From Ianthella basta (Eukaryota; Porifera; Demospongiae; Verongiida; Ianthellidae), in assembly GCA_964019415.1 (NCBI GenBank), contig OZ025878.1:4840512-4904511 (forward strand): a stretch of 64,000 nt of DNA, in the 5' to 3' direction. Under the pieces are notes generated by a model. That model did no database searches and had not been told where the DNA came from. It saw nothing but the letters and a program-made list of their open reading frames with translations. The position numbers and the translations under genes were made by a program. Numbering within the stretch: the first letter of the stretch is position 1; the number at the start of each line of letters is the position of its first letter. Positions 1,717 through 60,919 of the stretch are shown one piece after another.

Positions 1717-2165
1717 TCAAACACAGCTCTCCTTTGTTTCTTCAGTGGCTGGAATTATTTCAAACTCTTCAGTGATATTGACTTCTTCATTAGCTTTGTC
1801 ATTTTGATCTTCAGCCTTTTCAGCCAATGTAATCTTCATCTCCAGCTCCTCATCACCTTTAATACTTCTTGCATCCTCCTTCTTCTTCTGTCCTCCAACT
1901 TCAATAATGGCCTCTGATTCTGCTGCAAAGCTGTTACCCTTTTTACTGTCAACCCAGGTTGACTTGCCAGAGCTAGTACCTCCTGAACAGGGACAAAGTG
2001 AACAGTTTTAAGCAGCTTTGGGCGCAAATATCTTACAACAAAGAACTTGCTCTGTCTGTGTTTGTATTTAACTTCAAACATACGTATTCAAGCATATAAT
2101 TGAATGCAAAAATACATCACAGCAGACCAACCAGGAGCTGAGCCACTTCCACTGGTCAATGTCAC
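1717..2165 (-). CDS. Gene B exons 67-68: cytoplasmic tail with C-terminal PDZ ligand
   Basis: A 34-nt micro-exon (2132-2165, VTLTSGSGSAP plus one base) and the last exon (1717-1982). The phase-1 join between them makes a glycine codon, which supports the micro-exon. The tail is rich in Glu and Lys (GQKKKEDARSIKGDEELEM and KAEDQNDKANEEVNITEEFE) and probably disordered. It ends KESCV before TGA (1717-1719). Ser at -2 and Val at 0 match a class I PDZ-binding motif. ADGRV1 also ends in a PDZ ligand; a scaffold partner here is inference. Confidence 0.8.
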
Positions 2166-5100
2166 CTACAGCACATGTACAATGAGCAGCAATGCATCAA
2201 ATCAGACAGCTGGCTGTGTGCTGTGTGTGCAGCTACAATAGCTACGTATTTACTTTGACAGTACGTAGCACTAACCTGTGTCCACAGCTTTGGAAGTTTG
2301 TCTTTGATCTTTCCATACACCTTCTCATGTCTCACAACATGAAACAGAAATATGAACAAACCCTGCAAGACGATTGCAGAATGAAGTTGTTAAAGAATGA
2401 CAAGCACCCTTGCCATCTGTTAAAACTCAGAAATACTGCTGTAGTTAACCTCTCACCTGAAACACATTGGCAATGACAAAGAGGTAGGCAAAGACCCTCC
2501 CCTCCTCTCCCACTGCAAACAGCCCAATGATCCAGGTGAAACCCAGCAATGGGAGAAGGATGATGGTAGCCTTCAACAGGTGTCTGAGAAAAATAGACAA
2601 CAATACACATTATATGTGCACATCAGGAACAGTTGGTCAATACTGTACTGAAGCTAGCTAAGTAAACGCATTCAGTATAAACCAGTCAGCTGGCTTCACA
2701 GGTGATCCACTTGCAGGATGGGAAAGACCATGCAACCCTTGTAGTAATAGTTGTAAAATTAATGCACAATTTGCTCACTTTCTGCCATGCCCATTGAGCA
2801 TGCAGTGGTAAAGTTTCTACTCGGGAAATCAGCTAGTGTGCGTGTGCGGACTTACTTGCCCACATCCATGTACTTCTGTCTCTTCTCATCCTTGTTAGAC
2901 TCCATCTTAGAAGCCATTCCACACTGAGACTTGGCCAGTGACACCAAACTGATGGTCAGCAGTACAGCATTCACCTGTGTGTAAGCACACACAGTGTCAC
3001 ATTTTGGATGATACGTATATAGCCCACTAACATGCTCCAAGCTCTCCAGTTCACACATCATTCAGGTGACATGAATGTGTGTCCACTCTTTAGGGGACAA
3101 TTTCAATGGACCAATAGTGAGATGTAAATTCATAAGATATGTTGCATCAGCTATATATACTCACCACAATAATGGCCACCATTGGTCCAATAAATGCAAA
3201 AATAATTCCCTTTTCACTGGGCAACCAACACCTAAGGGAAAGTGCATGTACACAATTGCAAAGAATAGATTAAAGTATAGTAATAAACCTGTTCATTTAT
3301 TTCCAAGAACTCACGCTTTGATATCCTTATGATGAGGATGATTCTGATCAAATGATGATCTAATCAGATAGCTGTCATGTCTCACTCCTCCAGTTATCAC
3401 CACAACAGGAATGGGGAGAGCTGAGGAATTGATTGGACAGGGGATACAAACCATATTACCTGCTCATTTTGATATTGTATGAAAGAAACCATGGTAATTA
3501 ATATAGGTCACAGACCAAAATTAATGATAAGTGCTGAAAAATGTAACAGAAAAGACTGTACATGAATTTCTAAGGTGGACCTCATAGTGGAAGAATACAA
3601 AGCTAGAATTGTGCTAGTAACATAATATATACAATGCATAACTTCCTAAGAACACTAGTTGGCAATATGGTATTCATGTACTCCACAGTTAATAATAGTT
3701 GGCGCCGAAAGCAGAAATTGTGTCTTTCTTGAACAGTACACAATTGAACTAATGTGATGGTGCCTTATCACTAATAGGTATTGCTTCATGAATAATCACC
3801 AATTAACATTGATAGATGAAGAATCATGCAGTTTAGTTATTATGTGTGCTAGTTTGATAACTGTAGATCCTGAGCATTACTTCATTATTGAGTGACTGCA
3901 AATGTCAAAGAATATGTTATAATTATAGTACACAATAATTATATAAGCCTGCCTATTTGCTTTCATTTCACAAGGTAAAAGGGGGCGAAGCGCCCGATGG
4001 GGAGTAAAATAAGAAGCATATAGTCTGGCTTAGTTTACTATAATTAGCTTATTGTAAGACGAACGTTGCGAATTCGTGGAACCCTCGAGCATTCATTACC
4101 AAGCACATGGTGGATCAAAAGGAATGTGCAAGAACTCAGAAATATTCTTTTGAAGTGTAAGGTGTACATAAACATATCATACATAGTGATGACATTGCTC
4201 ACCCCATCCCAGTGCCAGGTAGAGGTAGATCCACTTTCTCTCGTTGGCTCCAAACACTTTCACCAGAAGGATGTAAATGAGGACAGCTTCACAGAGTGTC
4301 CAGGTGAAGGTAGCCAGGAAGAAGTAGTGGAGCAAGGCTGTCATAACTTTGCAGGCATACTAGTGAATGGAAGGATATGTATGCAAATTGATACTGAATT
4401 ATTGTTCCATCAAGCAAAATCACTAAATTAATCAGTTCAAAGTGTTCTGCCCATCATGGCTTGATTTTTCATTTGCACTTATGTTCAAAACCATTTGATA
4501 TCACTGATTTCTCTGAGTGACTGACGTAAGATACTGTCCATGGCCATTTCAGTCACTTTTAGTGCAATTGCTTCAGACATTTTGGAGCCAACACTGATAT
4601 GATAGAGGAGCATTAGACTAGTATACAGTTGTCATCTTAATGAATTTGTAGTTGTTGAAATATTTGGCTTAGTCTAATATCAGCCTTGACTAGTCACACT
4701 CTGTAATAACAAGAATACTTGTACCTAGCCACCCAGAGTTCTTCACATTGAGAATCAGTTTGCTTATCATCTATAGTTAATGCACTGTTTGCTCTTTGAA
4801 TTAGATTTATAATCATGATCATATGCACCCCAAGGTAGTCTGCATTTTAGCTTTCAACTTTGCTGAAACACACATGTAATATAAATGATTGCAAACTTAA
4901 CACTGTGCAGTTATTGCCAATTTGGATTTCTCAGTACATGATGAAGTTCACTAATCTATTGATAAATAGCCCTAATTGGGTGTGCCTGTCACTTACAATG
5001 TTGGCTGTGGCTGTCTGTATTCCAGTGAGGAACAGGAGCAGTCCCAAGGAAAGGGCAATGCACAGATTAAGGTGGACAAAATTGTGGAGCTTTCGAAATA

Positions 5101-8100
5101 ACTCCTTTCTGCAGCAGTAGAAGGAATACAAAGTGAGACTTCTACAAAACTGACCAAACTACAGATTTTACTTCACCTCAGTGACAAGAAGAATATGATG
5201 GAGGCAAGCAAGCAGAGTAAAGAAATGCTGCAGCCAATGTATGTGATGTAGTCCAAGGCAGGCTGCAAGAAGAGGTAGAGGATTGTGGGGTAACTAAACA
5301 TGGCATCTGCATAAACAGGCATACACCTATTCAGTTCCAATACAATTGAGAATCAGTTACTCACTGGATCTCCCACTGTTGACACGATGCTGACCAAAAC
5401 TACAAAACTGGTCAGATGTGATGCATTGCAGCCAACATGAGTGTCATTGATGACTTTAGTCTCAACTCCTCTGTAGGACCACCCTCCAGTCTGGTTGGCC
5501 CCTCCAGTGAAGTTAAAGAAGGCACAATGGAACTGCTTCACTCTTCCAGCTGGGACTGTGAGGTTCTGTGCTCTCTCCTTTAGAAAGTGTTAAAGGATAT
5601 TTTAGAATAATGGTTTCTGGAAGCCATAGTATAAAGTGCAATAGGTCCAGAATTAACCATGAATACCTTCCAATCCATGTACTTTGCATGTAATAGTATG
5701 TACTGTACAAGTGCATGCAGACGAACCATCTCATTACAATAATAGTAACAAGCATTACGTACATGTTAACTACAAGCACTTCCTTACATTAATAGGGAAC
5801 ATCACTTCCACTGTCTCATTGGTGTCCACCTCCCCACCATCATAGCCAGGAATCTGACTTGAGAGCACACGACTAGCAGGAAGGGTATCCTCCACCTCAC
5901 CTGCACTGTATGCAGGCAAGAAAATGTTACGTGATTTAAACACATTTCAATATAGTATAGGGTGCCTGTATAATGTTTTACAGTAGTAAGCCTGTACAGA
6001 AAGTTAGTTTAAGCAGATCGATGAATAGAAATAATAAAATTTCAGAATATGTCATTAAGAGTATATTTTCAACAAATTGGTATTGCCTATTGAGAATGTT
6101 TCCTGTTCATTACTCATACATGTATGTAGGGGTAGAGACACTTACATCTTCTCTTCCTGGTCAGCCACATTACTGGGCAGGTAATTCTCCATGTTGTTCA
6201 TCACCACATTCACTACCTCAACAGTGTCATTTTCTGAAATATCAATTATGCACCTTAAATGATACCCCTACTCATTGCTCAAAGATTTTAATATGCAACT
6301 CACCAGAAGGCATTTCTATTCCTCTTGCTGCCAAAAGGAAAGCTCGAGGCAACTGAACAAGAGGAAGGCTGTCTGGCTTTCCGAAGGAGGGCAGTGTGAC
6401 ACCAGGTCCTGGGAATACTACAGTCTGAACATTGCTGATTGAGAACAGCTGTCCATTCATTACTGAGTGTATAGGTAAGAAACAGAAAGTTCCATTAAAT
6501 AATTATTATTTAATTCAGCGGGTTTAAACTTGCAATGGACAATATCTTCAATGCTGTATGGACCACATATACCTATATTTGGTCTTGAAATGGTAAAGGT
6601 ATCCTTGTCCTTGGACAATGTACTTGCAAGCACATTAGTGACTCTTTCTGTGCTCTGAAGGATGCTGGTAGCTGTGGGCACTGCTTTGCCATCTTCTGGG
6701 TCAGCTGAGGTACTCTTCTACATGTGTACAATGTGGAGCCCACTGTTAAGTACACCTACTTCTATCTTAATAAACTACAAACATTTTCTTTTCCGAAATA
6801 AATATCAGTGGAATTGCCTTTATGAATTCAATGTCAGTGGAACTCCACCTATTTGGTATACCTAATGCCCAAATGTTCAAACTATTACACCTAGTGTGTC
6901 CTAACTAACACACACAGCAAGATGTATTATCAGGGCTCACCTGTTCAGTAGCTTCAAATGCTGGTGCATTACGTTCATCAAGTACATTGCTCAATATGTC
7001 AGCCACCACCTACAATGGGCCAGAACATTAAGCACTCAGTACAACCACACAGTGAATTGTGTAGTGCGTATGTGTGCTCACTTCTTGTGTTTCATTCGCT
7101 TCTTCACTAAACAAACCATTGTTCTCGCCCAGGCTGCAGTCAGGGAGACAGTTATTGTGAGAAAATGGGGTGATCATAAACGATCTGCCTCTTGCATTCA
7201 TACTTGGAACCAAACAACAGGCTTACTCTGCTACAACTTCCACAAATTTGGCAACTGTCTTCAAATCTTGTGGTGGAATTGGTGTGTCATCCTCAGTTTC
7301 ATTCTCAACTGTTGGTTGCAAAGCTGCACTTAAATCCTGAGATACATTCTGAAACAAATCTCTTTCACCATCACTGAGGGTGCTGTTAGACCCATCCAAA
7401 GTTTCAATGAACTTTTCAGTCTACAGACAAAGCCATGTATTCTATTTCTCTCTTGAACAACAGACAAAGTGTTCTATACACTATTATTGTTCTACTTATT
7501 TCTTATGTGTTAGGATGCGCAATCAGTCTTACTTTCATCCTAACTGCCACGACAGCCACAGATTCACATTCTGAGGCATCAACAGAGTCCCACACACCAC
7601 CAGCCAGACATCTCCTGTAGGCCAGGCTCATCCCAGGTGTGTCCCCCTCTCTTTGACAAGCAACAGACTGAGTGGAGTCTGGAGCAGTAACAGGCCACTG
7701 GATCCTCCACACACTGTCTTCTTCATTAGGACAATTACTGATTACAACTGGTAGAAGATGACAAATGCATGAAATGCATGTGTCTGATTGTGTAATTTCT
7801 TCGCCTACGTACTTTCATCAGCCACAATAGAGATAGTTGCAGTGTTAGGTGAGCCCTTGATGACACCTATGGCTGCAGCCACAGCTGGGATCTCCAGATC
7901 AAGAGTGAACATCTCAGCAAGTTCTGCAATGTTGTCGTCAATGATGGTCACATTGAAGCTGATCACATTCACTCCAGCTGGGAAGGTCACAGTGAAACGA
8001 TCATCCTCATAGTCAGAGCCACCTAAGGATGCAAATGGGAAACGGTAAGCAGTCTAATGGAGACAATAGGTGAGGAAGGAAATATCTGCCACCACCCTGT

Positions 8101-11100
8101 TTAAAACACACGGCATGTGCTCAAACATGAAGTTTCAGCCTTATAGCCGCGCTCGCATACAGTCCTAGCAATCTGGTATGCTCACACTCTGATCATGTAC
8201 CAGTCTTGTACGTTTAGAATTTCTGTACCCACAAAATGCATATCTGTGGCTAGACCCACGTGTAGCAGTTCCATCCTGTGCGACCACAGTGAGATTGAAG
8301 GCAAAGTCGAGGTGGTCTTCAAGTGCTTCCAAGGTGATGACAGCATTGCCATCCACTTCTTCTCTCACAAGGTAGTTAGATTGGCTGAACCGTACTGGAA
8401 TAAGGGCTGAAATGCAAAACAGAGTTGTCAATACCATCTCACTACAGAGTAGGAATTTGAGTTGATTTTTAGAAGTGCGTATACCCAAGACGTAAACCAC
8501 AGCTTACGAGTAGTGTCAGTGATGGTGACAAAGGCAACTTCTGGAGAGCCAACAACGACAGCTTCTGGTATGACAGGGAGACTGAGGGTGGCCTTGAAGT
8601 ATTCATCATCTTCCACAAATTTGCTTGTTAGAGTAGTCATAGAGAGTGTCACCTTCACCTTTCCACTTTGGAGTGACACATTAAAGGAGCCACCCACATA
8701 GTCATCAGGATCTGGTGGAAGATGGCCCATACATCTTGAAGTTATCAGCTTCACACTACAAGAAGTAGTAAACAGATCTCGCAGTTACCTTGAGCTGTGA
8801 TGTCCATGGTAGTGAAAGTAATGGTGATGTCCTTGGGTGATGGTTTGTCCAGTACAATCATGATGTCAGCTGGTGTGCCCTCAGGAACAGTGTAGTTCTG
8901 TGGACTGAAACTGATGGCTACCACTGAAAGGGAATAACCAAGGGACATGGGTTTTGAGCATATACTGAAGCAGCATATATATATATATATATATAAGGAT
9001 AGAGAGTCCACACAGCATCTCATTGATCATTAAGCCCTAACCCTCATTGTCCACTATGTTCACAGTTGCAGTATCAGGTGACCCCTTGATGACACCCATA
9101 GCTGCTGAAGCAGCTGGGATCTCCAGATCAAGAGTGAACAACTCAGTAAGTTCAGCAATGTTGTCATCAATGATGGTCACATTGAAGTTGATCACATTCA
9201 CTCCAGCTGGGAAGGTCACTGTGAAACGATCACCCTCATAGTCAGAGTCACCTGTTTACACAGACATGGAGGAGGAAAAGTAGAATTGCCTATTAAATTG
9301 GTTAAATCATAGTCTAGTGAAGCAGGCGAACTTGAGTATTAATGCACTACTCAGCTGGTTCACTATACAGCATTGGTACACTTAGCTGCTGTGCATGCAG
9401 TATAACTATGCATGTATAAAATTAATATAAGTATGAGTGACTCAACGATTCCAAGACTTAGTACTAACTAAAAGCAGTTCCATTCTGTGTGACCACAGTG
9501 AGGATGATGGCAAACTCAGGATGGTCTTCAAGTGCTACCAAGGTGATGACAGCAATGCTATCCACTCCTTCCTTCACAGAGTAGTTGGATGGGTTCAGTA
9601 TTATTGGGATTGATGCTGCAGGGGATAATGAATGTGTGCAAAAGGAACATAGAATATTGCCTAGAATATTTGTCTGATGAGCATGCTGATAAAATCCTCC
9701 ACATACAAGTATTATCAGTTATACTGACAAAGGCCACATCTGGAGAGGCAACAACCACATCCTCTAGTGCACCAGCAAGGTTGAGGGTGGCTTTGAAGTA
9801 CTCCTCATCTTCTTTCAAATTGTCTGTTAGAGTAGTCACAGGCAGTGTCACCTTCACTGTCTGAGCTGGGATCAACATGCTAATTGAGCCACCAGTGTAG
9901 TCATCAGGGTCTGGGTGGAATTGAAGGATGACTTTTGATGACTGGCAAACAGAAATACACATGAAGTATTGATAGACTGATTGCATTTTATCAGTAACCA
10001 TCAGACAGTGTCAAGGTATATACCTCGAGCTATGAAGTCCATGGTAGTGACAGTAATGTTGATGTTCTTGGGTGATGGTTTGTCTAGTACAATCATGATT
10101 TCAGCTGGTGTGCCCTCAGGAACAGTGTAGTTCTGAGGACTGAAACTGATGGTCACCACTGAAGAGGAAGATTATAAGAAGCTTTAAACTGGGAGAATGT
10201 CGTTAATACCACACGTATACTGTGTCAAGTGGTGCTAACCCTCATTGTCCATGATGTTAACAGTTGCAGTGTCAGGTGACCCCTTGATGATACCCATAGC
10301 AGCAGATGCATCTGGGATCTCCAGATCAAGAGTGAACAACTCAGCAAGTTCAGCAATGTTGTCATCAATGATGGTCACATTGAAGCTGATCACATTCACT
10401 CCCGCTGGGAAGGTCACTGTGAAATGTTCGCCCTTGTAGTCGCTATCACCTGTGAGTGCATAAAGAATTATTTGTTGTATTGTAGAAAGTGTATTTGAAA
10501 AGTGAGGAAGACAGGTACAGTGCTCCCATGCTGTATAGAGCATCGCGGTTGTACCGTTCTACTGTTACTGCTGTTAACATATTCTGCCACATTGCATAGG
10601 TGCACAAGAAGCACTAACGAATGCTCACGTGTAGCAGTTCCATTCTGTGGGAGCACAGTGACAGTGAAGGCAAAACCAGGATGGTCTACAAGAGCTTCCA
10701 AGATGATGACAGCATTACTGTCTACTCCTTCCTTCACAGAGTAGTTGGATGGTTTAAAGTGAACTGGTATCAATACTGCACAACAAAGTGAATGTACACA
10801 GGACAGAAGTGGAAAAGTTTCATTAATGAGTTAACATGAATGATACAATGTATACTCTTACGTACGAGTATTGTCAATGACATGTACAAAGGTTACATCT
10901 GGAAATCCAATAGCCACATCTGCTGGTGCATCAGGGAGACTGAGAGTGGCCTTGAAGTACTCATCATCTTCCACAAAGTTGTCTCTTAGAGAGGCTACAG
11001 GGAGTGTTTCTTTCACTAATCCAGCTCGGATCAACACATTAAAGGAGCCACCTGTGTAGTCATAAGCATCTGGATAAAACAGAAAGAATATGCAGAAAGC

Positions 11101-33235: not shown

Positions 33236-33569
<334 letters not shown>

Positions 33570-33649
33570 CACAGTGGCAGTGCTTTATCATGAAGCATAA
33601 GCAAAATAGTGTACATGTGAGTATAAGCAAGTGTATGTTAGCATTATGC

Positions 33650-37150: not shown

Positions 37151-37475
37151 CTAATTAGCATTCTCATACACTTCCCCTTCAGCAACACTCTGGTCACACT
37201 CCACAGTGGCAACCTGGACACTAAGTGTGGCATCCTGCAAGATGCCATGAGCAGTGTCCCCCTGCTCCCCCTCATTGGCCTCAAAGGGCAGCTCCTCATA
37301 TGTGTGGTCCTCTTCCCCCTTGCCTGCCTCTTTGTTAGAAGAGAAGCTTGTGACTGCCTCCTCTTTAGTCACATATGCTGGATTCTTCATCATGTTCTCA
37401 AGGGCAACACCCCCAGGCTTACTGTCAATGTACTCACACTCGTCATATATCGGGTTGGGGAGAGGACGGTTGGGC
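37151..37475 (-). CDS. Gene A exon 30: cytoplasmic tail with tyrosine docking motifs
   Basis: The last exon encodes 107 residues and stops with TAG at 37151-37153. The tail has five tyrosines in acidic contexts: NPIYDE, ECEYIDS, KNPAYVTKEE, DHTYEELPF and the near-terminal EVYENAN. Two are NPxY motifs (PTB-domain or endocytic adaptor docking) and YENA is a Y-x-N motif of the Grb2-SH2 type. There is no kinase or phosphatase domain, so signalling would depend on other kinases. Function is inferred from motifs only. Confidence 0.85.
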
Positions 37476-49400: not shown

Positions 49401-52400
49401 CCCGCTGGTCATCTTACAAAGATGAAAGTGCCACGGGCAGCTGTTCCACCCCGACTGGGGCTCATTGGTGCTGCATTTCAGCAACCTTGTGCAAAGTCAT
49501 GCTCATGCCTTATAACCTTCCCCCTACTATTTTTCACTCTTGTTGAAACACTTTTACTGTTGGTGGAAGCAAGAGTAGCTAGTCATCCTGCCATCCATTA
49601 TTGCACCACACTGATGAGCCCCAATCAGGACAAACAGCTGTCTGTAGCTCTTCCATCTTTGAAGGATGACTCATGGGGGAAGACAATCAATGAATGCCAT
49701 CAATAGGGCTCCTGTAGCACCACTGGTGTAGAAGCCTGGTTGACATACTATCCAGTGATTCACCCAACTTCATAGTTTTGTTTTCTTCACCATTTTGCTT
49801 CCATGCTTCTTGTATAGTTATAGTAGGTAAAGTTGGTGGTTCTAATCATAGCACTTCCTTTCACCTGTATGCAACAGAATAGCTTCTGTTTTCATATATA
49901 TGTATATATGTATAGTTATGGCAGGAGTGAATGTGGCAATTGCCATAGCAAGAAGGATGTCTCAAGATAGACTTCTCGTAATCCAATAGTCATCAACAAG
50001 CATAGCAACTTTGTTATAATATTAACAGTCTTTTCGGTCATCAGCAATACTGTATCCTTAAAAATCGGAGCTATATACTGAATATTCACAGCATATTATG
50101 CACTCAGTGAAAATAACAGCAATTATCTTGAGTTTTAGGAGTGTGCAGACACCCTACATTTTCTAGTACGTAACTCGATAACTTGCGTAAACTTGAAATA
50201 ATTGTTATAGAGTGCAACCTTAATTTCTACATACTAGTAAAAGGAGAGCTGCCTGACTTACTATCGTCATCATCAATGATTATTTCCACAAAGGTGTTAG
50301 TCACACAGGCTTCAGGTATAAAGAACTGTGCTGCTTGTCCAATGGGGCGGACTGCACTGATTCGGAGGCGAAAATACTCCCTTCCCTCAAATAATCCATC
50401 ATCAGCAATTTTGATCACATGTTCAGTTGAATTGACTTGCTTGGAGAGGAAAGTTACTGTGAAGTTTCTGGATGTAATTTCTTGATGGTTGACAATATAG
50501 TCAGTCCCTACAAGTGATTCAAAGTATTTGAGAACAGTTAGTGTGACAAGAGCAATAGGATGTGAACAGCTGCTATAGCATAGCAAGTATAGAAAGTGCA
50601 ATAGTGAGTTACAAATATCATATCAGATCACAGGCTTTCATCAACTGTGTATATTTTAATTACAGTTATATAAGTCAAATGTTCTGCCCTTCTTTGTCCC
50701 AATTTTCCTCGGGCGCCAGGGAAGTGATTGCCACCAAACTACACTGTGATATAAGCTGCACAGCAAGGTTGGCGTTCTCAATTAATAAAGTGCTTATAGC
50801 TGAGGAGGGGGATGCAAACGAGGCCACCCGCAATATATATAAAGCGGGCAGAACCAGATTATTCTCGTGCACCTACGCAAGCTGAGAGCAGATGGCTGCT
50901 AAACGTATCCTGCATGCACGGCGACACTGTGCTGTAGGTTGCACCAAAGCCTTGACCTACCTTAATAGCTTCTAGCCATGGAAACGGCGGCAAGTTTTAT
51001 TTTTTTTTTGGGGGGGGGGGTTACTTGTCCACCAACCCTTCTAGCACCCAGCAACAGATTACCACCAGACTTTGGTAACTACCACTCTCTCCAGGCCTTG
51101 TATTGATCATGCTTGAGATGATTGTTGCTAGACACAGGATGACTGCTGTGCATGTGCAGAATCAGTTTGTGGAAGGAATCGTGAACGTAATCACAACAGA
51201 CAGTCCATATCATGTATTCAGAGTAGATTCATTGCTGTGTGTAGAAACAGCTTGAGGAAGCAATCATGAGTTTCTCAGCGCATTCACATCAGGCATCCCA
51301 AGGGCATGTTAGATATGTTCACCGATTGGTCTGGAAATCCCATCCCTTCCCATCGGGATACTGGCTGTGATTATGCTCATGACTCCTTCCACAAACTGGA
51401 TGTGTCCTATTATACAAACGTTGAGAGAAAGCTTACCAAGTATAGCCTGCTGTTGACCACCACCAGCTGGTAGATCTTCTGTGATTATGTCAACTTCAAT
51501 TCTTCCAGTGAAAGAAGGGGCAGAGGACTGAGACAGGATAGGGGCTGACATACGAACCACAAGTTGTTCACCTTCCCTGGTGGTAGGGTCACTGATTGAA
51601 AAGACTGGTCCAATTATAACTGTGTATCATGAAAGAGAGAGGGCAATAGATTGTCGGATGATTGCAACACAAGCTAGCAGTGTGCATTCATGAAATTGTC
51701 TCCATTGATACAGTGGTATAAATAGCATGATAAATAAATGTAGAGCAACATAATATTTATGTTTTCAGCAAAAATAGTAAAAATGTAGAGATGCACAAAA
51801 GTACAGAAAAAGAAGGACCCTTGCACAGTGGAGGATTAACCATGGATAGATCATACATGCAAGAAAGTTGTACTATTTAATACTGCAATTCAGGAAATTG
51901 CAGTGTTCAGAATGTTCATAGGATAGATTTGATGATATATGAAATAGTCAGGCATCAGAGGGGGATCGATACACATCATCAAAATGTGTATTGATATACG
52001 TAATTATTATAACATGCATTAGCATGGAGTTCTAGCATATGCCACATGGCACAACTATGGAAATGTACTATTCCACGTACTGGAGTGGTGAATACTTAGT
52101 AAGTTCCATGCTCTCGTACACAAGACCACCTAGGGTATAGCCAGGCTAGGCACTAAAGATATCCTACACAGATGTTTACTATAATAAATGAAATGTTAGA
52201 ATTAATTTTTCAGGACGTTTCGATCCAAGGACTCAACTGGCACAATAACTGACACAACTTAAGAATAACCTGACTTAAATAGATGCGGTGTGACAGTGGG
52301 TGATGTGTGATGTCAGAATAAATTAATTGCAACAGCAGATGATGTGTATTGTAAATGAGCGTGATGAGATGAGTAGATTAAGTTGTGTCCGTTATTGCAC

Positions 52401-55400
52401 CATGCAGTTGAGAAATGTCCTCAGTCTGAAACATCCTGGAAATTAATGGAAGTTGATTTGAAGTTTGAGTTGAAATTAATTGAAGTTGATCCAGTCGCTC
52501 TGCTTACGCTCAGAAACTCTCCTCTACCAGTACCCCTACGCAGCAATGAACCGTTACTGCATCAAGTATTATAACATTATAATTTTATGTATGATGTGAA
52601 TCTCACTAGCCTACTGGAAGTAAGCTCAGTTAAGTCTGCAAGGATTGAGTCTAACTTATGAGAATAAGGTTGATTATCCAATCACCAGCTTGATCACAAC
52701 AGGGTTTCAACCTTGCCACTGTTCTGACCAGATCTGGTCGAAATGTCAGCAAGGTTCAAACCCTGCTGTGATCAAGCTGGCAATTGGAGAGCCAACTCTT
52801 TTCTCAGGCCAATGCCAACTGAGAAGCCTCACTTCATTCAAGTGTCTTATGATGCACAGTATAATACAATGTCTTAGAGCAATTTGGACAAATAAACACA
52901 ACATTTTAAGTGCGCTTGTTGTAAATAGCATCTACTGTTACATAAGGTACATTACAGTTGACTCACTGTTATCATCAGTAATGGTCACATTGACAGTGTC
53001 CTGTTGACCAATCCTCACTCGGATGAAGTCAGACGTCTCCACTAGGCGCACCTGAAAGTACTCCAGACCTTCTGTAATGTTGTCAGTTGTAATATTAAAG
53101 GTTATGGGTAAAGAGTCAGCAAAGGGTGCTGGAGTATCTGTATCAGTGAATGCAGTTTGAGGGAACTCCACTCTGTAGCGTCCTGCACTAGAGTAGTCTT
53201 CAGGGTCTGCAGAATGACATGAAAAGATTAAAAGAGCACAAAGGGACAAACAAATCTTGAAGGTCTGCAGAATATAATGGAATAATTATTCCATAAATTA
53301 TTCCATTATACTCTGAACAATGAACAACATGAATATTTGTTTAAGATATCATTCGAATGATATCTTAAACAAATAATTCATGTTAAAACTGATGGACCTG
53401 CTCATCTAACTCGAAATACTCGTTTCCTATAGCTGCTGATCTGTAATCATCCAAGTTCGTTCGCCAAAATTTCACAAGTTATCCAGACGTTTCGGCAGCT
53501 TTCAGCCACCTTCATCAGTGAATGACAAAATACAGCACTCCTATAGTTTATATACAAATGTTAGTGACAGGTGATGAAATGTGGTGACAGTTGATGATGC
53601 GACCATGAATAACGTTAAAGTAACAATTTAGCAGTCAATGAATTTTGTTAGGCAGTAACAGTAGAGATGCAATAGTAATCTACTCTAGGAGGGCAGTGTA
53701 CACCTCAGGCAAGGTTCCCTTCTCCCTATTCAGTGCATCCGGGTTCCGTTGTATATGCCAACTCTCCAATAGGCAGCGTGTGGTGGCATATGGGTGAAAG
53801 TCAATTACTTCTGACTTGGTGAGATCCACCAGATGACCTGTTGCGAGGGTGTGTTCTGCGAGGGCCGATGCTGCCACATCTCCATTCTTCAGGGCACGTC
53901 TGTGTTCTGCCAGCCGGTGTTTGAGGCTCCGGCCAGTTTGCCCAATGTACACCTTGGAGCATCCATCACAAGGCACGCTTCTGGAAGCGTTACGTAGACG
54001 ATACGTGCACAGCTCTCCCCAAGGACATGGTCGAGCCCTTCCATAAGCACCTGAACTGCATCGAGCCATGCATACAATTCACAGTGGAGGAGGAGTCTGG
54101 TGATAGGAAGCTACCTTTTCTGGATGTACAGCTTTGCAGGGATTGTGATGGCACTGTCACTACATCGGTGTATCGGAAGGCCACACACACCAACCAATAC
54201 CTCTCCTTCACATCCCACCGCCCGACGGCACACAAGGTAGCTGTGGTAAGGACCCTCATGACCAGAGCCAACACTCTTTCATCCTCAGGCGTGGAGAGAG
54301 TGCAGGAAGAGAAACAGATTGTAGAAGCACTGCAAGAGAATGGCTACCCCCCCCCCCCCCCCCCAGCTTCGTCCACAAACACTCGCACCCAAGGGGACCA
54401 AGACGGGAAATGGATGACCAGAGGCCCAGAACAACCCTGACCCTCCCTTACATTGCTGGTCTTTCGGAGGCAGTAAGACGGATTCTTGCACCGCTAGAAA
54501 TCAAGGTGGTTTTCCGCCCACAAAGCACTCTTCGCAGCTTACTTGTGCACCCCAAGGATCCAGTACCAATGGACCAACGGAAGGGGGTTGTGTACAGTGT
54601 GCCTTGTGATGGATGCTCCAAGGTGTACATTGGGCAAACTGGCCGGAGCCTCAAACACCGGCTGGCAGAACACAGACGTCCAGGGAAGTCAGTTTGTTTG
54701 TTGCCATATGCATACAAAAGCTAAACATGATTTAACCCTGGGAATTTGGAAGCTGATATAGTGAATTTGCTATCTTTGAGAGCAACATATGTAGGGGAAA
54801 GTAAGTACCAAGATAGCCTGGCCAATTGCATGGGCCAGATGGCTGTATTCTCTTGCAATTGGCAGTGTAATGATGAAACATTTAATACACTACTTTATTA
54901 CATCACTCATGCAATGTTATCTTTTGCTTTATCATCATCATAATTATTCATTTACACTATGTACTTATTACATAATACAGCCATCATGCTTACAGCTGTT
55001 GCCTGCCTTCACAATGCCTTGTATTTGACTAGTATAAACATTTTATCTTAGCACATTGCAGGCTAATAGTATTGTTATGTTCAGGAGTTACACCTTTAGT
55101 TTTTGATGGATGGATACTAAAGGTGATTTGTTAGCTGTGACGTCCAATCAGTCATGTAACTGATGAGCAATACTGCAGCTTAATATAGAACAAGGTGGGA
55201 GCAGAACGTTTATGTCAACTGCTTACACTGTATAAGCAGTTGACAAAGACCCCCGGCTCAAAATGTCCTGCTCCCACCTTGTTCTATTAAGCATTAAGCT
55301 GCAGTATTGCTCACCAATTACATGATTAATGCTAAATGTGGCAGGACCATGGAGGGCCATAGGCAGAGTAACATGACAGAGCCAAATTAGCTTGAAATCA

Positions 55401-58400
55401 ATCCATCCAGTTCTTGCATCTTTTCTGGTCAGTCTTCCTGCTTATAGCTACTTTTACTCTGATGTTTACCCTGATTTTGTACCAACTGATAACGATCTAT
55501 GGATTGAAACATCTTGTTCTAGAATAACTCCCCTGCTGTGATTTACTCAAATATCTGCCTGCTCATCACAGTCGTGTTTTAGATGTTAGCAAACTCCCCA
55601 AAACATAAAAGGTTACATCATGGCAATACGAGGAGTGGCCAGTTTAAGGGGAACAAATGGGGCATCCCCCACCAACAGCCCTCAGCTATATAGTGCCAAC
55701 TTTCCCTTTCTTTTCAACATTTCTTCCAAGTTGTGACTCTCATTTGCTTCAACGCGGTTACAACCGACTCGTTCATCTTACGTAAAAGTGTTGATTCTGG
55801 TGATGGTAGTGTAGACTCAGAAGTGTTGTGTAGGGATGGTCCAGCAGCGTAAACAAAATACGTATCTGTTGAGGGTCTCAGTTATTATTTGATGTGCTGC
55901 ATCTTTGGTAACAGTATGGTCAGCACGTACACTGAAAATTTTAATGGGCTTCCTTGGCTGAGATGAAGGAGTAGCTAACAGACTAGTTTTTGCCTTTCTA
56001 TAATCGTTCCAGTCACTTGGTTATGTATTTGTAGTGGGCCCAGTAACCTTGATGTGTCAACTTCAATGCTTATTGTGAAGCCAGTCACTCTTGGTGCATG
56101 CATGAGCTACGTACAACAAGCCAGTACGGAACAATGACAAGGTTGCACTAACCTGAATGGGCGGGCGGCTAACTGCTGCCACTTATCGACCCACTACTGT
56201 GCTCCAATTCTAATTTTATGTAAGGCGAGTTGTTCCAGCCTGGTTGGTTGGCTTGGAAACCCTGCGTTAGGGCGTAAGTTGTCCTGGGTTCGACTGCCAT
56301 CTGGTGCCAACTTTCCCTTTCCTTCCAACATTTCCTCCAAGTCGTGACTTTCATTAGATTCAGCACAGAATCAATACTGATTACCTATATACAGCTAAGG
56401 TGGATACAATAATAGCTAGTCATTCTGCCTTCCATCAGTACGCAACACTGATGAGTTCCAATCAGGGTGAAACAGGCCTGTGTGCCAAAAAGGTCTCTGT
56501 GGCTCTACAGACCATCTTTATAGGATGACTAGCGGGGTGAAGCCGATCACTGGTTGCCCTCAAATTGGGCTACGGACCCCCGGCCAATGCCCCCCAGCCT
56601 CCTGTAACACCACTGACATAGAAGGCTGGTCAATGTACTATCCAGTGATCCAACTTCAACCTATTCATTGTCCATGCAGTGGCTAACTGCAATGAACTGC
56701 CATTTCATCATTATTATCTGTTTACACTATAATACAAAATGCATGAACAGTTGCTGCTTGACCTCACAATGCTTTGCCTTAGATTGGCATCAACATGTTA
56801 TCAGCATGTTAATGACATCATTATACTCAGGATTTACTCCTTTGTTTTTCAACGAATGATAGCCAAAGGTGGACGAAATATGGAAGAGCATAGTAGACTG
56901 GGCACCGAGTGAATTGGGAGCCTGCTTCAGTCATTTTTAATCCACCAGACACCAAGCACCACAAACTAGAACTGTGACCTGACTTTGACTCTCTTTGGTT
57001 CCCCATTCATTACTGGACACCTTTAGTCATGCATATTCAATTAATTAAGAATTCTGCATGTCCTCATAGAACTGTATAGAGTGTGTCTACAAAACACTCT
57101 CTATTAAATACACAGCTTTAATAACTGATTAATAGTTTGAATTGCGAGACAGGTTGGGAACCAAACTGAAGTGTGAGTATTCAGCTAGTAGGGAACTGAT
57201 GGACACTAACTTTCCCAGCACTACAATGCATGCTGTGCCATTGGGTGCACTGAAGTCAGTGTTCTCTAACAGCCTACAACTGTGGAGGGAGCAGTGAATG
57301 AGTTTTTAGACAACATAGCTTGCTTACCACCAAACCTTTAGCCCTAAAGGCACACCTGAGGAGAGGCATCTAGGAATGGGCTACTTGAACTATTCCTGAG
57401 GAGTTGGAGCTGGGAAGTAAAGGCTGGAACATCTGCATGAACTACTACATTGGGTGCTGCTGGATTGTGATCAAACGTCACAATTTATTTGGGGAAGAGT
57501 TATTTGAGCAAGTTATGTAACTGGAATGTACAAGTTTAAGATGTTTTGACCTCAGGGGTGTTCATCAATTGAATAATTAAAGAAAGCCAACTTGGAGAAG
57601 CAGGCAATGCCATCTTGAGACAACGGAGGCCGTATACGACTTTACGTGCACAGCCTTGAAGAGTCTGCAAAGCTTGCCTATGGAGCTAAATGTTGGTCTT
57701 TTGCATCAGTCCATTGGTGAGAAAGGAACAGGGACATCAACCTTCCTGTGTAGACAAGTCCTGATCCAGCCAGGGCTGTACAGCAACTTCTCAGAAAGAT
57801 TTCTACATGCACACGCAGACAATGCTTGCTATGCTCACTGCAGATTGGCCTGGGTGTGGCCCGTGCACACAACCCAGAGCATACTCATAAGGAGCTAAGC
57901 TTAAGTAGCACATTCAGTTATTATAGCCTACAATTGGGCCCCTTAGCATACTGTGATGAGTGAGTATGCATTGGATGAGCCAGCTATTGGCAAGCTTTCA
58001 TCAACTTGCATAGCACCAAAGCCCACCAGTGGCAGCCCATTCCAAAAGAAGTTGGATCATGTGTACGTAGCTACATTCTAATTACGTACTTCTTTGAGCG
58101 CTGCTCACCAGTTGCTGTTTCATTACTGACTTCAATGACAGCATACAGAGGAATGAAGAACTGTCCAGTGATGTGTAGGGAGACACTGACTTGGCCTACA
58201 CTTTCAGTAACACTGTAACATGACCTTTTGAAGTTTACCTCCACATCTGGTGAAAGAAAAGGAGTATTAGATCACTAATAATTATGAATGTAAGTTGAAA
58301 TTAGCTAAAGTTTTACTCACAGTCATCATCTAGAATACTGATGTATGTGGTGGAGGGCTGCCCTTTTCTAGTATTCCAGTTGTGTGCATTTTCTGGGCCA

Positions 58401-60919
58401 AAATCAAAAGTTGCTATTAGGAGCTCATCAAATTCCAGCACACTATCATCAATGATGGTAAAGCTCTCAAAAGCTGACTTGCTGGCTGGTGTGAAGATAA
58501 AGTCACTGCTTGTATTCTCCACATCAGTGCGACCAGACACTGTGGTCCAAGTGCAAGAAGCTACATCACTGTGGGTTCATTCATGCACTAATTCAAAACA
58601 CCTTACTTCTCACTTGTGCTTTGCCAAAAATTCTGCCCCTGAATGACACTTGCTCAATGGAGGAGTTAATGATCAGAGCTATTAATTGATAAATATATAT
58701 ATATATGTGTGTGCGTAGTAGAAAGGTGGATTGTTCAGATTGAAAATGTGTTTCAACGAAACCAACAATTAAGGTAGCATCATCTGGGTTTGACTCTCAA
58801 TTACCTTGAATTCTGTCTGGCCCAAGCACTTCAAGAGTGGGACGTGTGGTAGGGTCACTATCAGGAATCCTTCTTGGGCCCCCCTTAATGGCAACTTGGG
58901 CCACCTCAAAGTCAGATTCAGTGACAAGCTCTACAGTTGCTAATTCACGTTCTAGAAACTCATAAGAATCTTGAGCCCAACGCACAATCAGCTCTGGAGG
59001 AGAACAGAATAGAAATATAATTATATGTACATAAACATAGTCATTCAAGAAATCATAATACATGCATGTGCTCACCATCATCGTCAAGAATTTGTATGGT
59101 GACTTGACTTGGGAAAATAGTCTGGACTGAATCCACAGTACCTCCTTGAAGAGTACAGATAAAGGACTCCCTTGGTTCAGCAATTTCATCATTAATGATT
59201 GGTATCACCACTTCATCAAGTGAGAAGCTTCGGGCAGTTCCAACATCATTGAAGTGAAGCTTAGTTCCAACAGTGAAGTTGAAATCTCTGCCAGGAAGAG
59301 CTGCACACAAGGTGGTAACAAGACAAAGTGTGGTAACTCACACAACTCCTACTAGCAGCATGCTAGCATCAATGACTGATATGGTGTCCATACCTGGTTC
59401 TACATCAGTGGCAATAGTCTCTGAACACTCAACACCAATTGCTACCTCATTGGCATAAATCCCAAATGCTTCACCACGCAGTCTCACCACATCTCCCTCA
59501 GTCACTGATATGGCTCGTGATATTGTCCAGTTGACATGGACAACTACAAGAAGCAATTTTAATAATAATTCTGTTTACAATATGTAGAGGACAAGCTGAT
59601 TCACTTACTGTCATCATCTTCAATGTTTATGTCCACAAAGGTGTTTTCAAAACCAGGCTGTGGTACATAGAAGTCTGCTGCTTGTCCAATGGGGTGGACT
59701 GCACTGAGTCGGAGGCGAAAGTACTCCCTTCCTTCAAAGATCTGGTCATTAGTAATGTGGATCACATATTCAGTTGAATTAGCTTGCTTGGAGAAGAATG
59801 TTACTGTAAAGTTCATGGAAGTAATATCTTGAAGGTTGACAACATAGTCAGACACTGCAAGTGTGTGGGCAGAGTATTGGAATAGTGGGTGTCACATAGC
59901 AATAGAATATGAGGCAACTGAAAAATACATCAATAATATGACTGTATGACATATTATAATGCAAGACAGAAAGAAAAATGTTCTCTGATCACAAGAACAC
60001 ATACCTTGCTTGAGCAAGTACTAATTATACTCAGCTACACTACGTATATGTTTTATGTTGCAACAAGTATAGTAATTATAGTAGTAATTAGACTTTCTTA
60101 GACAAGTTCCATGTATAAGTATATTATAAATTATGTAGTACCAGAGAGAGAGAGAAAATTGTCCTCTGATCTTGAGGCCACACATCAGCAAATACTAATG
60201 ACAGCTTAGCTACATATTTGTGATTTGTTGCAACAAGTAAGAAAATTCTTACAAAATGTAGCCCGCAGACGGGTATCTCCAGCTGGCAGGTCTTCTGCAG
60301 TTATGTCCACTTCAATTCTTCCAGTGAAAGCAGGAGCAAAGGATCTAGTCAGGATAGGGGCTGACAAACAGACCACAAATTGTTCTCCTTCAATAGCGTT
60401 AAGGTTACTGATGGAAAATAGTGGGCCAACTGCATGATCAAAAAGAGGGGAGAAAACCAGAGAGGGAGAAGGGAAAGGAGGAGGTACACATTTGAGTAGA
60501 GGGGGAGAGAAGGAGAGAGGGAGATAAGGGTGAATCAACAGTGAGAGGGAGAGAGGAAGGATGATCAACAGAGATGAGGGGTGGAGGGAGAGTAAATGGA
60601 AGAAACGAGAGGGATTGGAGATGCCTGTTATGTATTAAATGACATATGGCATGTACTTGATGGTTCAACATACATGGGTGCTGCTCATGGTTTTGCTCTA
60701 TATCCTAGTGACAATAGTGACAATCTGATGAGATAGCAAAATTTTGTTGAATGCATGCAATTCTTATTGGGGAATTTATTTATGATGGTACAAGTTTAAT
60801 GCCTCACTGTCTTTGCAACATACAGGATAATTGTGCTGTGCCCTGAGCGATCAGAGTTGCTAGCTGCACCATAGCCATGGCTGCCAACAGGGCCTTCATC
60901 TTCTTACACCTCAATGCAG
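37151..60919 (-). CDS. Gene A: Calx-beta/FN3 single-pass receptor with tyrosine-motif tail, 30 coding exons
   Basis: Predicted type I membrane receptor, about 2,017 residues if the one-base lesion in exon 13 is disregarded. Order: signal peptide (1-25), 10 Calx-beta repeats (to about 1399), three FN3 domains (about 1400-1722), membrane-proximal region (1723-1870), TM (about 1874-1902) and a 108-residue cytoplasmic tail. Exons 1-21 are collinear and paralogous with exons 1-21 of gene B, introns included. The join from exon 23 (44855) to exon 24 (40115) is phase-compatible (1 to 1) but spans 4.7 kb with a retroelement, so the FN3 half could belong to another transcript. Exon 24 begins with an acceptor in phase 1, so it does need an upstream exon. 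Exon 13 (48621-48799) is frameshifted; skipping it keeps the frame. Confidence 0.65.
37616..38284 (-). CDS. Gene A exons 28-29: membrane-proximal region, Pro/Thr stalk and transmembrane helix
   Basis: Exon 28 (38226-38284, STVIIQLHLRPVSECTVWV) and exon 29 (37616-38118). The region has several cysteines (NCTCPL, FSCLGT, TNCPVVV, KRCTDP) and, by position, could be a SEA-like or receptor-specific domain, but I do not recognise it with certainty. It is followed by a low-complexity Pro/Thr/Asn stalk of short degenerate repeats (37727-37810), likely O-glycosylated, and a hydrophobic segment ITIAVCLAVLLVVIVLVAAV continuing to CRKW, a clear transmembrane helix with a basic stop-transfer. Confidence 0.8.
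38354..38402 (-). pseudogene. Truncated duplicate of gene A exon 28
   Basis: On the minus strand, after a TATGTCAG acceptor, the sequence STVIIQLHLQPVS parallels exon 28 (STVIIQLHLRPVS), then breaks off before the second half and the GTGAGT donor. It lies about 120 bp upstream of exon 28 in the sense direction. Confidence 0.6.
38486..40115 (-). CDS. Gene A exons 24-27: three fibronectin type III domains
   Basis: Exon 24 (39798-40115) has one FN3 (FKISWSSPDLPNGIIANYTI and YSIQLAVSSHGGTSPFTEDL). Exon 25 (39413-39700) has the second (LLVTWEHPLAPDRNGIITGY and YNITVAGNTSAGQGEF). Exons 26 (39113-39219) and 27 (38486-38741) split the third (VSWYPPNIPRGVITDYE joined to ISVSGKR and NYTVSVAALSDAGIGASSAE). 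The conserved Trp of strand B and Tyr of strand F are visible in each. Phases are 1/1, 1/1, 1/0 and 0/1. The third domain has a cysteine-rich insert (NCSMCSNPPPCVE). FN3 domains usually mediate protein contacts at the cell surface. Confidence 0.85.
40588..43425 (+). mobile_element. Degenerate Penelope-like retroelement (RT plus GIY-YIG) with terminal direct repeats
   Basis: Within the intron between exons 23 and 24 of gene A, on the opposite strand. An N-terminal RT motif (SKGLNFAPAPSKI, near 41155-41200), an RT core (YGTAIGS and IANLAMEDVEE near 42190-42255), the catalytic YVDD (about 42298-42310) and a thumb (LPILNVLLQRDPNGSIST, near 42415) are followed by a GIY-YIG-like segment (ATYVGQTGRCLSKQ, near 42910-42955). 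Frameshifts and stops interrupt it. About 80 bp at 40588-40665 recurs at 43345-43425 (AAATCAAGCAT, TTCAATTCTTG), like the terminal repeats of this class, after the conserved CACTGATGAAGAC. Confidence 0.75.
43590..43720. repeat. Minisatellite, about 30 bp unit
   Basis: Four to five copies of a unit built on ACCAGGAGCCAGCTCTAAGG or ACCAGGAGTCAGCTCAAGAG in tandem. No coding role seen. Confidence 0.75.
44855..45638 (-). CDS. Gene A exons 22-23: tenth Calx-beta repeat, not shared with gene B
   Basis: Exon 22 (45480-45638; YEDDLYSVEEEVGFVTLALV) and exon 23 (44855-45067; FDVTFPAGSKRQLYNVTIVD with DTFQENSEYFNADV) form one Calx-beta repeat unlike any unit of gene B's array. Both are phase 1/1. Exon 23 ends DDVD plus one base at GTGAGT, which fits the phase-1 start of the first FN3 exon at 40115. 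Confidence 0.8.
45068..46252. other. Introns around exon 22 of gene A
   Basis: Introns 45068-45479 and 45639-46252. I see nothing beyond splice sites in either. Confidence 0.4.
46253..48408 (-). CDS. Gene A exons 14-21: rest of the second Calx-beta block
   Basis: Exons 48163-48408, 47906-48061, 47587-47811, 47312-47500, 47156-47227, 46872-47090, 46662-46799 and 46253-46492 parallel gene B exons 14-21. Cores: IADDQIYEGREYFRLRISAI, IINDDIAEPRESFICTL, IIDDSVLEFDELLKATF and ITDDNILEGLEYFQARI. Exon 15 carries a six-base in-frame insertion (156 versus 150 nt) adding two residues near MTEGMYAVVRL. All are phase 1/1. Confidence 0.85.
48621..48799 (-). pseudogene. Gene A exon 13: Calx-beta half-exon with a one-base deletion
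   Basis: This exon has the usual acceptor, GTAAGT donor and the core LSAPILTQSFAPAFTGRIEV, but is 179 nt long, not a multiple of three. Around 48780-48781 it has three A residues where the paralogues (exons 2 and 11 of A; 2, 11 and 13 of B) have four on the plus strand. The frame in from the acceptor therefore runs to a stop just before the core. Skipping the exon would restore the frame, since both neighbours are phase 1. It may be a real lesion, a polymorphism or an assembly error. Confidence 0.7.
48800..50261. other. Intron between exons 12 and 13 of gene A
   Basis: No coding signal. It holds a partial duplicate of adjacent exon sequence (48961-48987, repeating ACCACAAGTTGTTGACCTTC from exon 13) and the foldback element at 49300-49775. 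Confidence 0.5.
49300..49775. mobile_element. Foldback element, family also present at 56400
   Basis: Left arm AATCACTGGATTACACC, CAGCCTTCTACAGTGGTG; right arm CACCACTGGTGTAGAAGCCT, CTATCCAGTGATT. The internal segment CTAGTCATCCTGCCATCCAT recurs at 56420. Not protein-coding. Confidence 0.65.
50262..51619 (-). CDS. Gene A exons 11-12: single extra Calx-beta repeat
   Basis: Exon 11 (51437-51619) and exon 12 (50262-50507) are the counterparts of gene B exons 11-12, with identical lengths (183 and 246 nt). Cores: MSAPILSQSSAPSFTGRIEV and IADDGLFEGREYFRLRISAV. Here the exon 11 donor is a normal GTAAGC. Both exons are phase 1/1. Confidence 0.8.
50508..52966. other. Introns around exon 11 of gene A
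   Basis: Intron 50508-51436 has a T-run joined to a G-run (51000-51020) and the foldback repeat shared with gene B. Intron 51620-52966 has a Penelope-like terminus (TTTCAGGACGTTTCGATCC at about 52209) and a hairpin repeat at 52685-52780. Confidence 0.5.
52685..52780. repeat. Hairpin repeat with tRNA B-box-like arms
   Basis: CCAGCTTGATCACAACAGGG and its near reverse complement (CCCTGCTGTGATCAAGCTGG) flank a 35-base centre; the arms contain GGTTCAAACCC, resembling a B box. Possibly an inverted SINE pair. Confidence 0.5.
52967..60429 (-). CDS. Gene A exons 2-10: first block of four Calx-beta repeats
   Basis: Exons 60253-60429, 59609-59854, 59394-59543, 59076-59300, 58805-58993, 58607-58678, 58321-58539, 58109-58246 and 52967-53206. 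They match gene B exons 2-10 one for one in order, subtype and nearly exact length (for example 177, 246, 150, 189, 72, 219, 138 and 240 nt). Conserved cores include LSAPILTRSFAPAFTGRIEV, IINDEIAEPRESFICTL and IIDDSVLEFDELLIATF. All are phase 1/1. Exon 10 is separated by a 4.9 kb intron holding Penelope-like fragments, foldback repeats and sequence related to the matching intron of gene B. Confidence 0.85.
53328..53382. repeat. Near-perfect palindrome
   Basis: Two 26-27 base arms around TTCGAA (TTTAAGATATCATTCGAATG and its mirror) pair with a single extra base. Shorter palindromes of AATAATTATT lie just upstream at 53278-53306. Confidence 0.75.
53470..54700. mobile_element. Penelope-like retroelement fragments in head-to-head orientation
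   Basis: On the minus strand, 53969-53683 encodes a GIY-YIG domain (VPCDGCSKVYIGQTGRSLKH, EHTLATGHLVDL) followed by a terminus with CACTGATGAAGGTGGC and GCCGAAACGTC (53525-53487). On the plus strand, from about 53970, an RT piece with the catalytic YVDD, EPCIQFTVEEESGDRKLPFL and a thumb leads into a second GIY-YIG start (VYIGQTGRSLKH, near 54625-54660). A run of 18 C at 54347-54364 interrupts the frame. The element is truncated and inactive. Confidence 0.75.
55145..55335. mobile_element. Foldback element in intron 9 of gene A
   Basis: Left arm GAGCAATACTGCAGCTTAAT and GAACAAGGTGGGAGCA; right arm TGCTCCCACCTTGTTC and TTAAGCTGCAGTATTGCTC, with an inner hairpin (GTCAACTGCTTACA and TAAGCAGTTGAC). 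Confidence 0.7.
56229..56300 (+). mobile_element. tRNA-derived SINE fragment
   Basis: GGTTGGTTGGCTTGGAAACC followed by CCTGGGTTCGACTGCC has the spacing and B-box consensus of a tRNA-related Pol III promoter. There is no complete cloverleaf that I can support. Confidence 0.45.
56400..56665. mobile_element. Partial copy of the 49300 foldback family
   Basis: Shares CTAGTCATTCTGCC, CACTGATGAG, CCAATCAGG, GGATGACT and the end CTGGTCAATGTACTATCCAG with the right half of the element at 49300-49775. Confidence 0.6.
60430..60823. repeat. Intron 1 of gene A with long purine-rich tract
   Basis: Between 60440 and 60620 the plus strand is mostly A and G (GAGAGGGAGAAGGGAAAGGA and similar), matching the tract in intron 1 of gene B. 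The rest is non-coding and resembles gene B intron 1 (GACAATCTG). Confidence 0.65.
60824..60919 (-). CDS. Gene A exon 1: 5' UTR end and signal peptide
   Basis: The ATG at 60897-60899 opens MKALLAAMAMVQLATLIAQG, then TAQLS, a secretory leader very close to that of gene B. The donor is GTATGT in phase 1 (60824). The acceptor lies at about 60920, and an upstream untranslated exon probably ends at 61016 (GTGAGC donor), as in gene B. Confidence 0.8.

Follow-up and report, generated by a model that had tools for sequence, protein, structure and literature searches.

The adhesion GPCR ADGRV1 (VLGR1) combines many Calx-beta repeats with EAR repeats, and in the paired receptors of vertebrates (KIR, Siglec) related ectodomains are mounted on different tails. 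Sponge aggregation factors have a C-terminal Wreath domain and, as Grice et al. reportedly described in 2017, are secreted Calx-beta proteins. HRM adhesion GPCRs are on record for Amphimedon (Krishnan et al. 2014, PMC4302439), in a paper whose main text contains no occurrence of the word "Calx". According to the available parts of the respective papers, Calx-beta is named in a figure-legend list among the domains of sponge immune receptors (PMC8242945), the fester/FcoR receptors of Botryllus are clustered and carry tyrosine motifs that also occur in Hydractinia alr (PMC12065747), and GPCR-kinase (GPCR-TK) fusions exist in sponges (PMC12716839). One ectodomain common to GPCR, kinase, and tyrosine-tail genes was not described in titles and abstract openings of a mostly non-subscription literature, nor in the available parts of PMC6208332, PMC8242945, PMC4302439, PMC12716839, PMC11229196, PMC8380372, PMC8662651, and PMC12065747.

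Genes A and B are neighbouring predicted receptor genes in a stretch of 64,000 nucleotides from the sponge Ianthella basta (the window; G000:C11:4840512-4904511, with C11 denoting contig OZ025878.1; positions without a contig name refer to the window). In the sequence, a common head, three membrane outputs contiguous with it, a common phase, and a relative on contig C19 in which other domains precede the tyrosine-tail output are present. We consider it likely that A and B are members of a clustered receptor family in which a common head is combined with different ends. B resembles ADGRV1 in its long Calx-beta array, GPS, and 7tm_2 domain, but it has an HRM-like domain and gave no match to EPTP/EAR in four parts that together cover it (E ≤ 0.01; E 0.1 for one part). 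The sponge HRM adhesion GPCRs possess HRM, GPS, and 7tm_2 as does B, whereas the available part of PMC4302439 describes no ectodomain that they have in common with other receptor classes. Clustered relatives and tyrosine-motif signalling are the likeness to Botryllus fester/FcoR and Hydractinia alr, as far as covered by the available part of PMC12065747, and the paired-receptor feature of homologous ectodomains on different signalling ends is also present. The tails of those clustered or paired receptors are of the ITIM/ITAM type, whereas here one head is predicted to serve GPCR, tyrosine-kinase, and tyrosine-tail ends. The likeness to the aggregation factors lies in secreted Calx-beta proteins, as which a type without transmembrane helix (no-TM) appears. 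Available parts of two further papers describe a kinase module reused with varied partners in RTKs with shuffled ectodomains (PMC8662651), and kinase and 7TM modules reused in the same manner in the sponge GPCR-TK fusions (PMC12716839). Here, however, it is the ectodomain that recurs, in GPCR genes and kinase genes that are distinct from each other; none of the gene models made is a GPCR-kinase fusion.

The common head of genes A and B

Gene models were made by homology-guided exon-chain prediction from genomic sequence alone, and the genome searched comprised 209 Mb in 96 contigs. On the reverse strand, gene A is predicted to begin with the ATG at 60899 and to terminate at 37151 (30 exons, 2048 amino acids, one terminal stop), and gene B to begin with the ATG at 32385 and to terminate at 1717 (3513 amino acids). 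Both models have an open reading frame throughout, with GT-AG boundaries verified at every intron of A and imposed by the predictor in B. The outer coordinates of the initial annotation, 60919 and 1717, agree with the model limits to within 20 bases; its 68 exons for B were not recovered, as our model counts 63, one of which (18 bases, 16668-16651) is doubtful. Models other than those of A and B are rough. Long GT/TG dinucleotide arrays lie between the two genes (33238-33569) and upstream of A (61813-62008), and an open frame on the reverse strand at 63759-63998 resembles, by eye, the C-terminal end of a LINE protein.

Exons 1-21 of the two genes, previously annotated as corresponding one for one, do so: all 21 phases agree, 16 of the 21 lengths are identical, and the remaining five pairs differ by 6 or 9 bases. 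The common head opens with a signal-peptide exon, after which two units of nine exons each flank a half unit of two exons. On the reverse strand of the window, A encodes the signal peptide (MKALLAAMAMVQLATLIAQGTAQLSC) in exon 1 (60824..60899), four Calx-beta-like domains in unit 1 (exons 2-10, 52967..60429), one in the half unit (exons 11-12, 50262..51619), and four in unit 2 (exons 13-21, 46253..48800). The counterparts in B, on the same strand, are the signal-peptide exon 1 (32310..32385), unit 1 (exons 2-10, 26437..31960), the half unit (exons 11-12, 24385..25663), and unit 2 (exons 13-21, 19318..23205). Amino-acid identity between A and B is 76.6% in unit 1 (556 codons), 70.2% in the half unit (141 codons), and 74.1% in unit 2 (555 codons), which indicates paralogy and not chance. 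Comparison of unit 1 with unit 2 of the same gene gives identities of 76.8% for A and 74.2% for B; the head thus grew by internal duplication. Exon 1 of A is homologous to exon 1 of B and of three relatives described below (A', the fragment A0, and B2), and the signal-peptide exon is recognisable in these five. Homology to this family exon revealed none for the relatives B3 and B4, nor was one found for the kinase gene K; the modelled first exons of B3 and K are doubtful.

Calx-beta was found in the heads by Pfam, with an E-value of 6e-40 and three separate stretches (E ≤ 0.01) in the 1425-amino-acid ectodomain of A, and 5e-20 and one stretch (E ≤ 0.01) in the first 1178 amino acids of B. Profiles of the four domain types, each built from the copies in A and B, were further compared with 12 later Calx-beta repeats of B. 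The probabilities were 80% (domain 1), 7% (domain 2), 85% over 44 columns only (domain 3), and 97% (domain 4). A tenth domain that is present only in A of the two genes (A10, see below) reached 98%, and an FN3 control 0.2%. The Calx-beta assignment is clear for domain 4, probable for domains 1 and 3, and weak for domain 2. The "nine Calx-beta repeats" of the initial annotation are thus in part a deduction.

Two predicted signalling ends

Downstream of the head, B continues on the reverse strand with further tandem Calx-beta repeats in a cycle of 135/204/147/210-base exons (7813..18147). Pfam detected five Calx-beta stretches in a part of 595 amino acids, which includes domain 4 of unit 2, and ten in a part of 1232 amino acids. 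CFAP65 and HYDIN Ig-like domains, Cupredoxin_1, DUF4843, and PilZNR passed the whole-protein cut-off in these repeats with 0 separate stretches each and were therefore taken as sums over repeats. An HRM-like domain follows (7533..7747; E 6e-4 and E 0.0014, under the curated Pfam cut-off), then a region that is GAIN-like by position together with a GPS (5365..6717; Pfam GPS E 1.2e-7), the 7TM exons (2276..5149; Pfam 7tm_2 E 3e-34, two stretches), and a last exon with the cytoplasmic tail and stop (1717..1982). The GAIN model gave no match at E ≤ 0.01 in the C-terminal 580 amino acids of B. The GPS retains an intact HLT tripeptide. The HRM-GAIN-7TM end proposed for B thus stands for 7tm_2 and GPS, while HRM is sub-threshold and GAIN is assigned by position.

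Gene A takes another course, also on the reverse strand. Exons 22 and 23 (44855..45638) encode A10, which is absent from B and present in the relatives B3, A'', and K, and exons 24-27 (38486..40115) encode three fibronectin type III domains (Pfam fn3 E 8e-41, three stretches). A 50-base exon 28 (38226..38275) recurs in the models of A' and A'', and its peptide has a similar counterpart in a relative of this output module on C19. Exon 29 (37616..38118) contains a membrane-proximal, Cys-containing domain, a PT-rich linker, and one transmembrane helix recognised by eye, and exon 30 (37151..37475) the cytoplasmic tail with tyrosine motifs and the stop. A SEA assignment for the membrane-proximal domain was dropped: Pfam gave no SEA match and DAG1 remained under the cut-off (E 0.0043), so the domain is SEA-like by eye only. 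The tail positions NPxY, NPAY, and HTYE are kept in all four copies read (A, A', A5, and A''); NPxY-type and YxN motifs are putative assignments in the tail. These data bear out the earlier description of the A end as FN3 domains, one transmembrane helix, and a tyrosine-motif tail, for which a phosphotyrosine adaptor output is predicted. Open frames that resemble, by eye, pieces of Penelope-type elements (reverse transcriptase, GIY-YIG) lie in A introns at 42.4-42.8 kb and 53.7-54.4 kb.

A cluster of related loci on one contig

The initial annotation regarded A and B as twins, a view that proved too narrow, as at least 45 places on C11 match one head exon and the head also leads to kinase and no-TM types. 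Paralogous heads on a GPCR and on an FN3/TM/tyrosine-tail output were correctly noticed, but the outputs are not just two. Head exon 2 has at least 52 matches in the genome, at least 45 of them on C11 between 4.827 and 6.270 Mb (a span of 1.44 Mb), where two copies are each split into two matches; counts of this kind are lower bounds because only the best candidates were scored in large families. Five further genes were read, namely A', the GPCR genes B2, B3, and B4, and K at a distance of 1.4 Mb. Between 4.80 and 5.05 Mb, a gapless reading of C11 gave the reverse-strand order A5, B3, B2, A0, A', A, B, B4, after which comes an HRM that belongs to another gene. A relic B-type cytoplasmic tail exon, with no other B-type match adjoining, lies just past the window end (C11:4905582-4905778).

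B2 and B4 keep the order of B, with fewer repeats in B4 (modelled without exon 6 of unit 1), and B3 combines one unit and the A10 exons of A with many Calx-beta repeats and a GPCR end. A', the neighbour of A, has the same domain order as A. It may be damaged, since exon 7 of its unit 1 has an apparent frameshift near the exon end and was shortened in the model. Identity between A and A' is highest in A10 (96%) and FN3 (93%) and lower in the TM exon and the tail (81%) and in the two units (78-81%); the intron between A10 and FN3 is itself 93.5% identical over 4.7 kb, so that A and A' do not provide an independent comparison. A5, an A-type end at C11:5.033-5.036 Mb, is head-less over 14.5 kb upstream. 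Pieces of a Gypsy-like reverse transcriptase and RNase H (by eye) are located just upstream of it (C11:5035.9-5037.3 kb). The diverged A'' (C11:5.828-5.846 Mb, forward strand) comprises a unit that was read from exon 2 onwards, then A10, extra Calx-beta exons, FN3, TM, and tail; its first exons at the 5' end lie outside the part read, and its model is in two pieces with a shortened tail, although the tail frame is open.

K (C11:6.268-6.295 Mb) leads contiguously from one unit and A10 through further Calx-beta exons and a transmembrane helix (by eye) to a tyrosine kinase. The kinase domain is complete (PK_Tyr_Ser-Thr E 3e-74, profile positions 1-257 of 258) and carries HRDLACRN and DFG. Kinase and Calx-beta matches at C11:5.99-6.05 Mb recur at 6.19-6.24 Mb with an offset of about 197-198 kb, which represents either a large duplication or an uncollapsed haplotype.

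The no-TM end was read in one tandem copy, over 8 kb at its 3' end (C11:5568501-5576500). It has two last coding stretches with no transmembrane helix by eye, followed by the signal peptide of the next gene, has Calx-beta exons in common with K (by eye), and has a head upstream by coordinates. Its C-terminal exon occurs at seven places with 69-100% identity, each with same-strand head exons upstream (by coordinates), and the type is probably secreted. The no-TM end gave only a weak match to Pfam ITI_HC_C (E 0.007, below the cut-off), nothing better than E 0.29 in PDB, and nothing in NCBIfam. At C11:8.02-8.08 Mb, distantly related copies (40-45%) of the no-TM C-terminal exon have strong Calx-beta matches in their vicinity, possibly as parts of aggregation-factor genes.

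Outside C11, diverged head exons lie, by coordinates, just upstream of an HRM exon on C22 and of a kinase exon on C4. Two exons of the A-type output have at least 33 matches each, on C19 and elsewhere. In the one C19 relative that was read (C19:5943501-5948500), EGF- and Ig-like domains precede the A-type output and no Calx-beta was seen in these 5 kb (both by eye); heads and outputs are therefore separable. Large arrays of other 7tm_2 matches, from a search in which the best 150 of 427 candidates were scored, are present at C12:4.78-5.04 Mb, mostly as long open frames of about 700-890 amino acids, and at C8:1.76-3.49 Mb as short open frames.

Among the outputs listed on C11, a same-strand head lies within 45 kb upstream, with no other listed output between, for four of seven FN3-tail, six of 15 GPCR, three of 17 RTK, and seven of 19 no-TM copies (one far kinase match of 18 and five weak no-TM matches of 24 were excluded), and most listed kinase and GPCR copies lack such a head. 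From the 45 exon-2 matches, one that represents half of a split copy was excluded from this head count, as were 46 of 60 matches of the A10 search, which are weak general Calx-beta matches. In the downstream direction, 45 exon-2 and 14 A10 matches were compared with the outputs at 4.55-6.36 Mb (FN3-tail 5, GPCR 14, RTK 17, no-TM 10). A same-strand output followed within 45 kb, a limit picked after the spacing was seen, for 52 of the 59 head matches. With strands flipped the number was 0, a weak control because whole gene blocks share one strand; none of 2000 circular shifts of the outputs reached 52 (mean 23.4, maximum 51). For the other seven head matches, on the forward strand at 5.759-5.772 and 5.849-5.886 Mb, the 45 kb interval contains no known output.

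Assembly of the family and its possible roles

Trees were calculated from 13 units of eight genes, with recombination outside the models. The unit of A'' groups with that of B3 (95/93), with unit 1 of B4 next to them (100/100). A groups with A' in unit 2 (97/98), the half unit (100/100), and unit 1 (84/96, unstarred), and B with B2 in unit 2 (100/99) and the half unit (100/99), while the unit-1 copies of B and B2 have no resolved grouping. One clade of all five FN3-tail units, a set that mixes units 1 and 2, was rejected (p-AU 1.9e-4), as was a clade of A, A', and A'' with either unit 2 (3.3e-4) or unit 1 (2.0e-5) and a clade of the GPCR-gene units (2.6e-5 for unit 2, 4.3e-15 for unit 1, 1.8e-7 for unit 1 without B3); one clade of units 1 and 2 of A and A' was not rejected (0.10). 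Recombination, duplication inside the genes, and the roughly modelled exon 7 of A' limit these tests, and all groups except the five FN3-tail units were named after inspection of the tree. They suggest that heads changed output at least once and that recent neighbours largely keep theirs. Since A pairs with A' in all three modules, and B pairs with B2 in two of them, head swapping appears not to be frequent. On the same grounds, a free exchange of heads across the whole family, which percent identities had suggested more strongly than the trees allow, is not supported. Between paralogues, dN/dS is 0.36-0.56 in head units, 0.31-0.65 in half units, 0.19-0.69 in A10, 0.09-0.28 in 7TM, 0.26 in the FN3 domains (A-A'), and 0.35-0.65 in tails. 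Heads hence diverge faster than 7TM, and no positive selection on heads was seen, dN/dS being below 1 in every region compared.

It might be objected that A is not one gene, and that its Calx-beta exons (44.8-60.9 kb) and its FN3/TM exons (37.1-40.1 kb) are separate genes, which would leave B as the only long receptor. The 4.7 kb intron between the two exon groups contains repeat-like sequence, the FN3/TM/tail block of A5 exists without head exons within 14.5 kb, and a simple hydrophobicity scan found four possible signal-like ORF starts in this intron of A and five in the corresponding intron of A'. Yet none of these starts resembles the conserved signal peptide of the family, the model of A is open across the join with phase 1 on both sides of the intron, and the diverged third locus A'' has the same order, though the predictor split it in two. 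Because of the open model, the matching phase, and the order in A'', separate transcripts appear unlikely, and we hold the two-gene account as a whole to be very unlikely. It is quite possible, on the other hand, that the cluster reflects an ordinary lineage expansion of Calx-beta adhesion receptors with generic heads, in which the sharing between outputs is functionally meaningless. Calx-beta exons are abundant in the genome (969 first-look candidates, the best 150 of which were scored), head and output are mostly kept together in recent neighbours, and dN/dS is uniformly below 1. Against this reading stand the specificity of the 9-exon unit, which retains 70-80% amino-acid identity across three output classes, and the recurrence of the A10 exons in GPCR and kinase genes.

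An allorecognition-like complex, with polymorphic recognition proteins, a secreted ligand, and activating as well as inhibitory outputs, would account for the clustered tandem arrangement, the several outputs, the probable secreted form, and the faster evolution of head units than of 7TM. We regard it as improbable; no region-level dN/dS between paralogues exceeds 1. Compared with these alternatives, we favour a clustered family with a common head and different ends, which would have arisen as genes duplicated in tandem and modules were joined at phase-1 introns. The conserved head would contain a 9-exon Calx-beta-like block, either as a single unit or as two units plus a half unit, behind the signal peptide wherever one was found, and it would have been joined to adhesion-GPCR, FN3/single-TM/tyrosine-tail, RTK, and (by coordinates) no-TM ends. 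Each model would correspond to one transcript, the no-TM type would be secreted, and the heads may mediate contacts with adjacent cells or matrix that depend on calcium. The member that a cell expresses could then decide whether one class of contact is read via a kinase, G proteins, or phosphotyrosine adaptors, and secreted relatives may supply ligand or matrix. Because their heads are similar, members of different output classes may meet similar partners, and homophilic binding between A and B is possible.

It is tempting, though doubtful, to go further and propose that the cluster of about 1.5 Mb is a combinatorial recognition locus, in which one diversified Calx-beta head is deployed in secreted, GPCR, tyrosine-tail, and tyrosine-kinase forms, and in which ligand and receptors descended from this head and interact through it. 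If true, it would constitute a sponge-type system for recognition of self or matrix. Two long-standing questions are by what means animals of the earliest branches tell self, neighbours, and matrix apart, and what the receiver of the aggregation signal in sponges is. A family with G-protein, kinase, phosphotyrosine-adaptor, and probably secreted outputs would offer concrete, testable candidates for both, and suggests that receptor classes commonly treated as separate families may exchange ectodomains inside one cluster.
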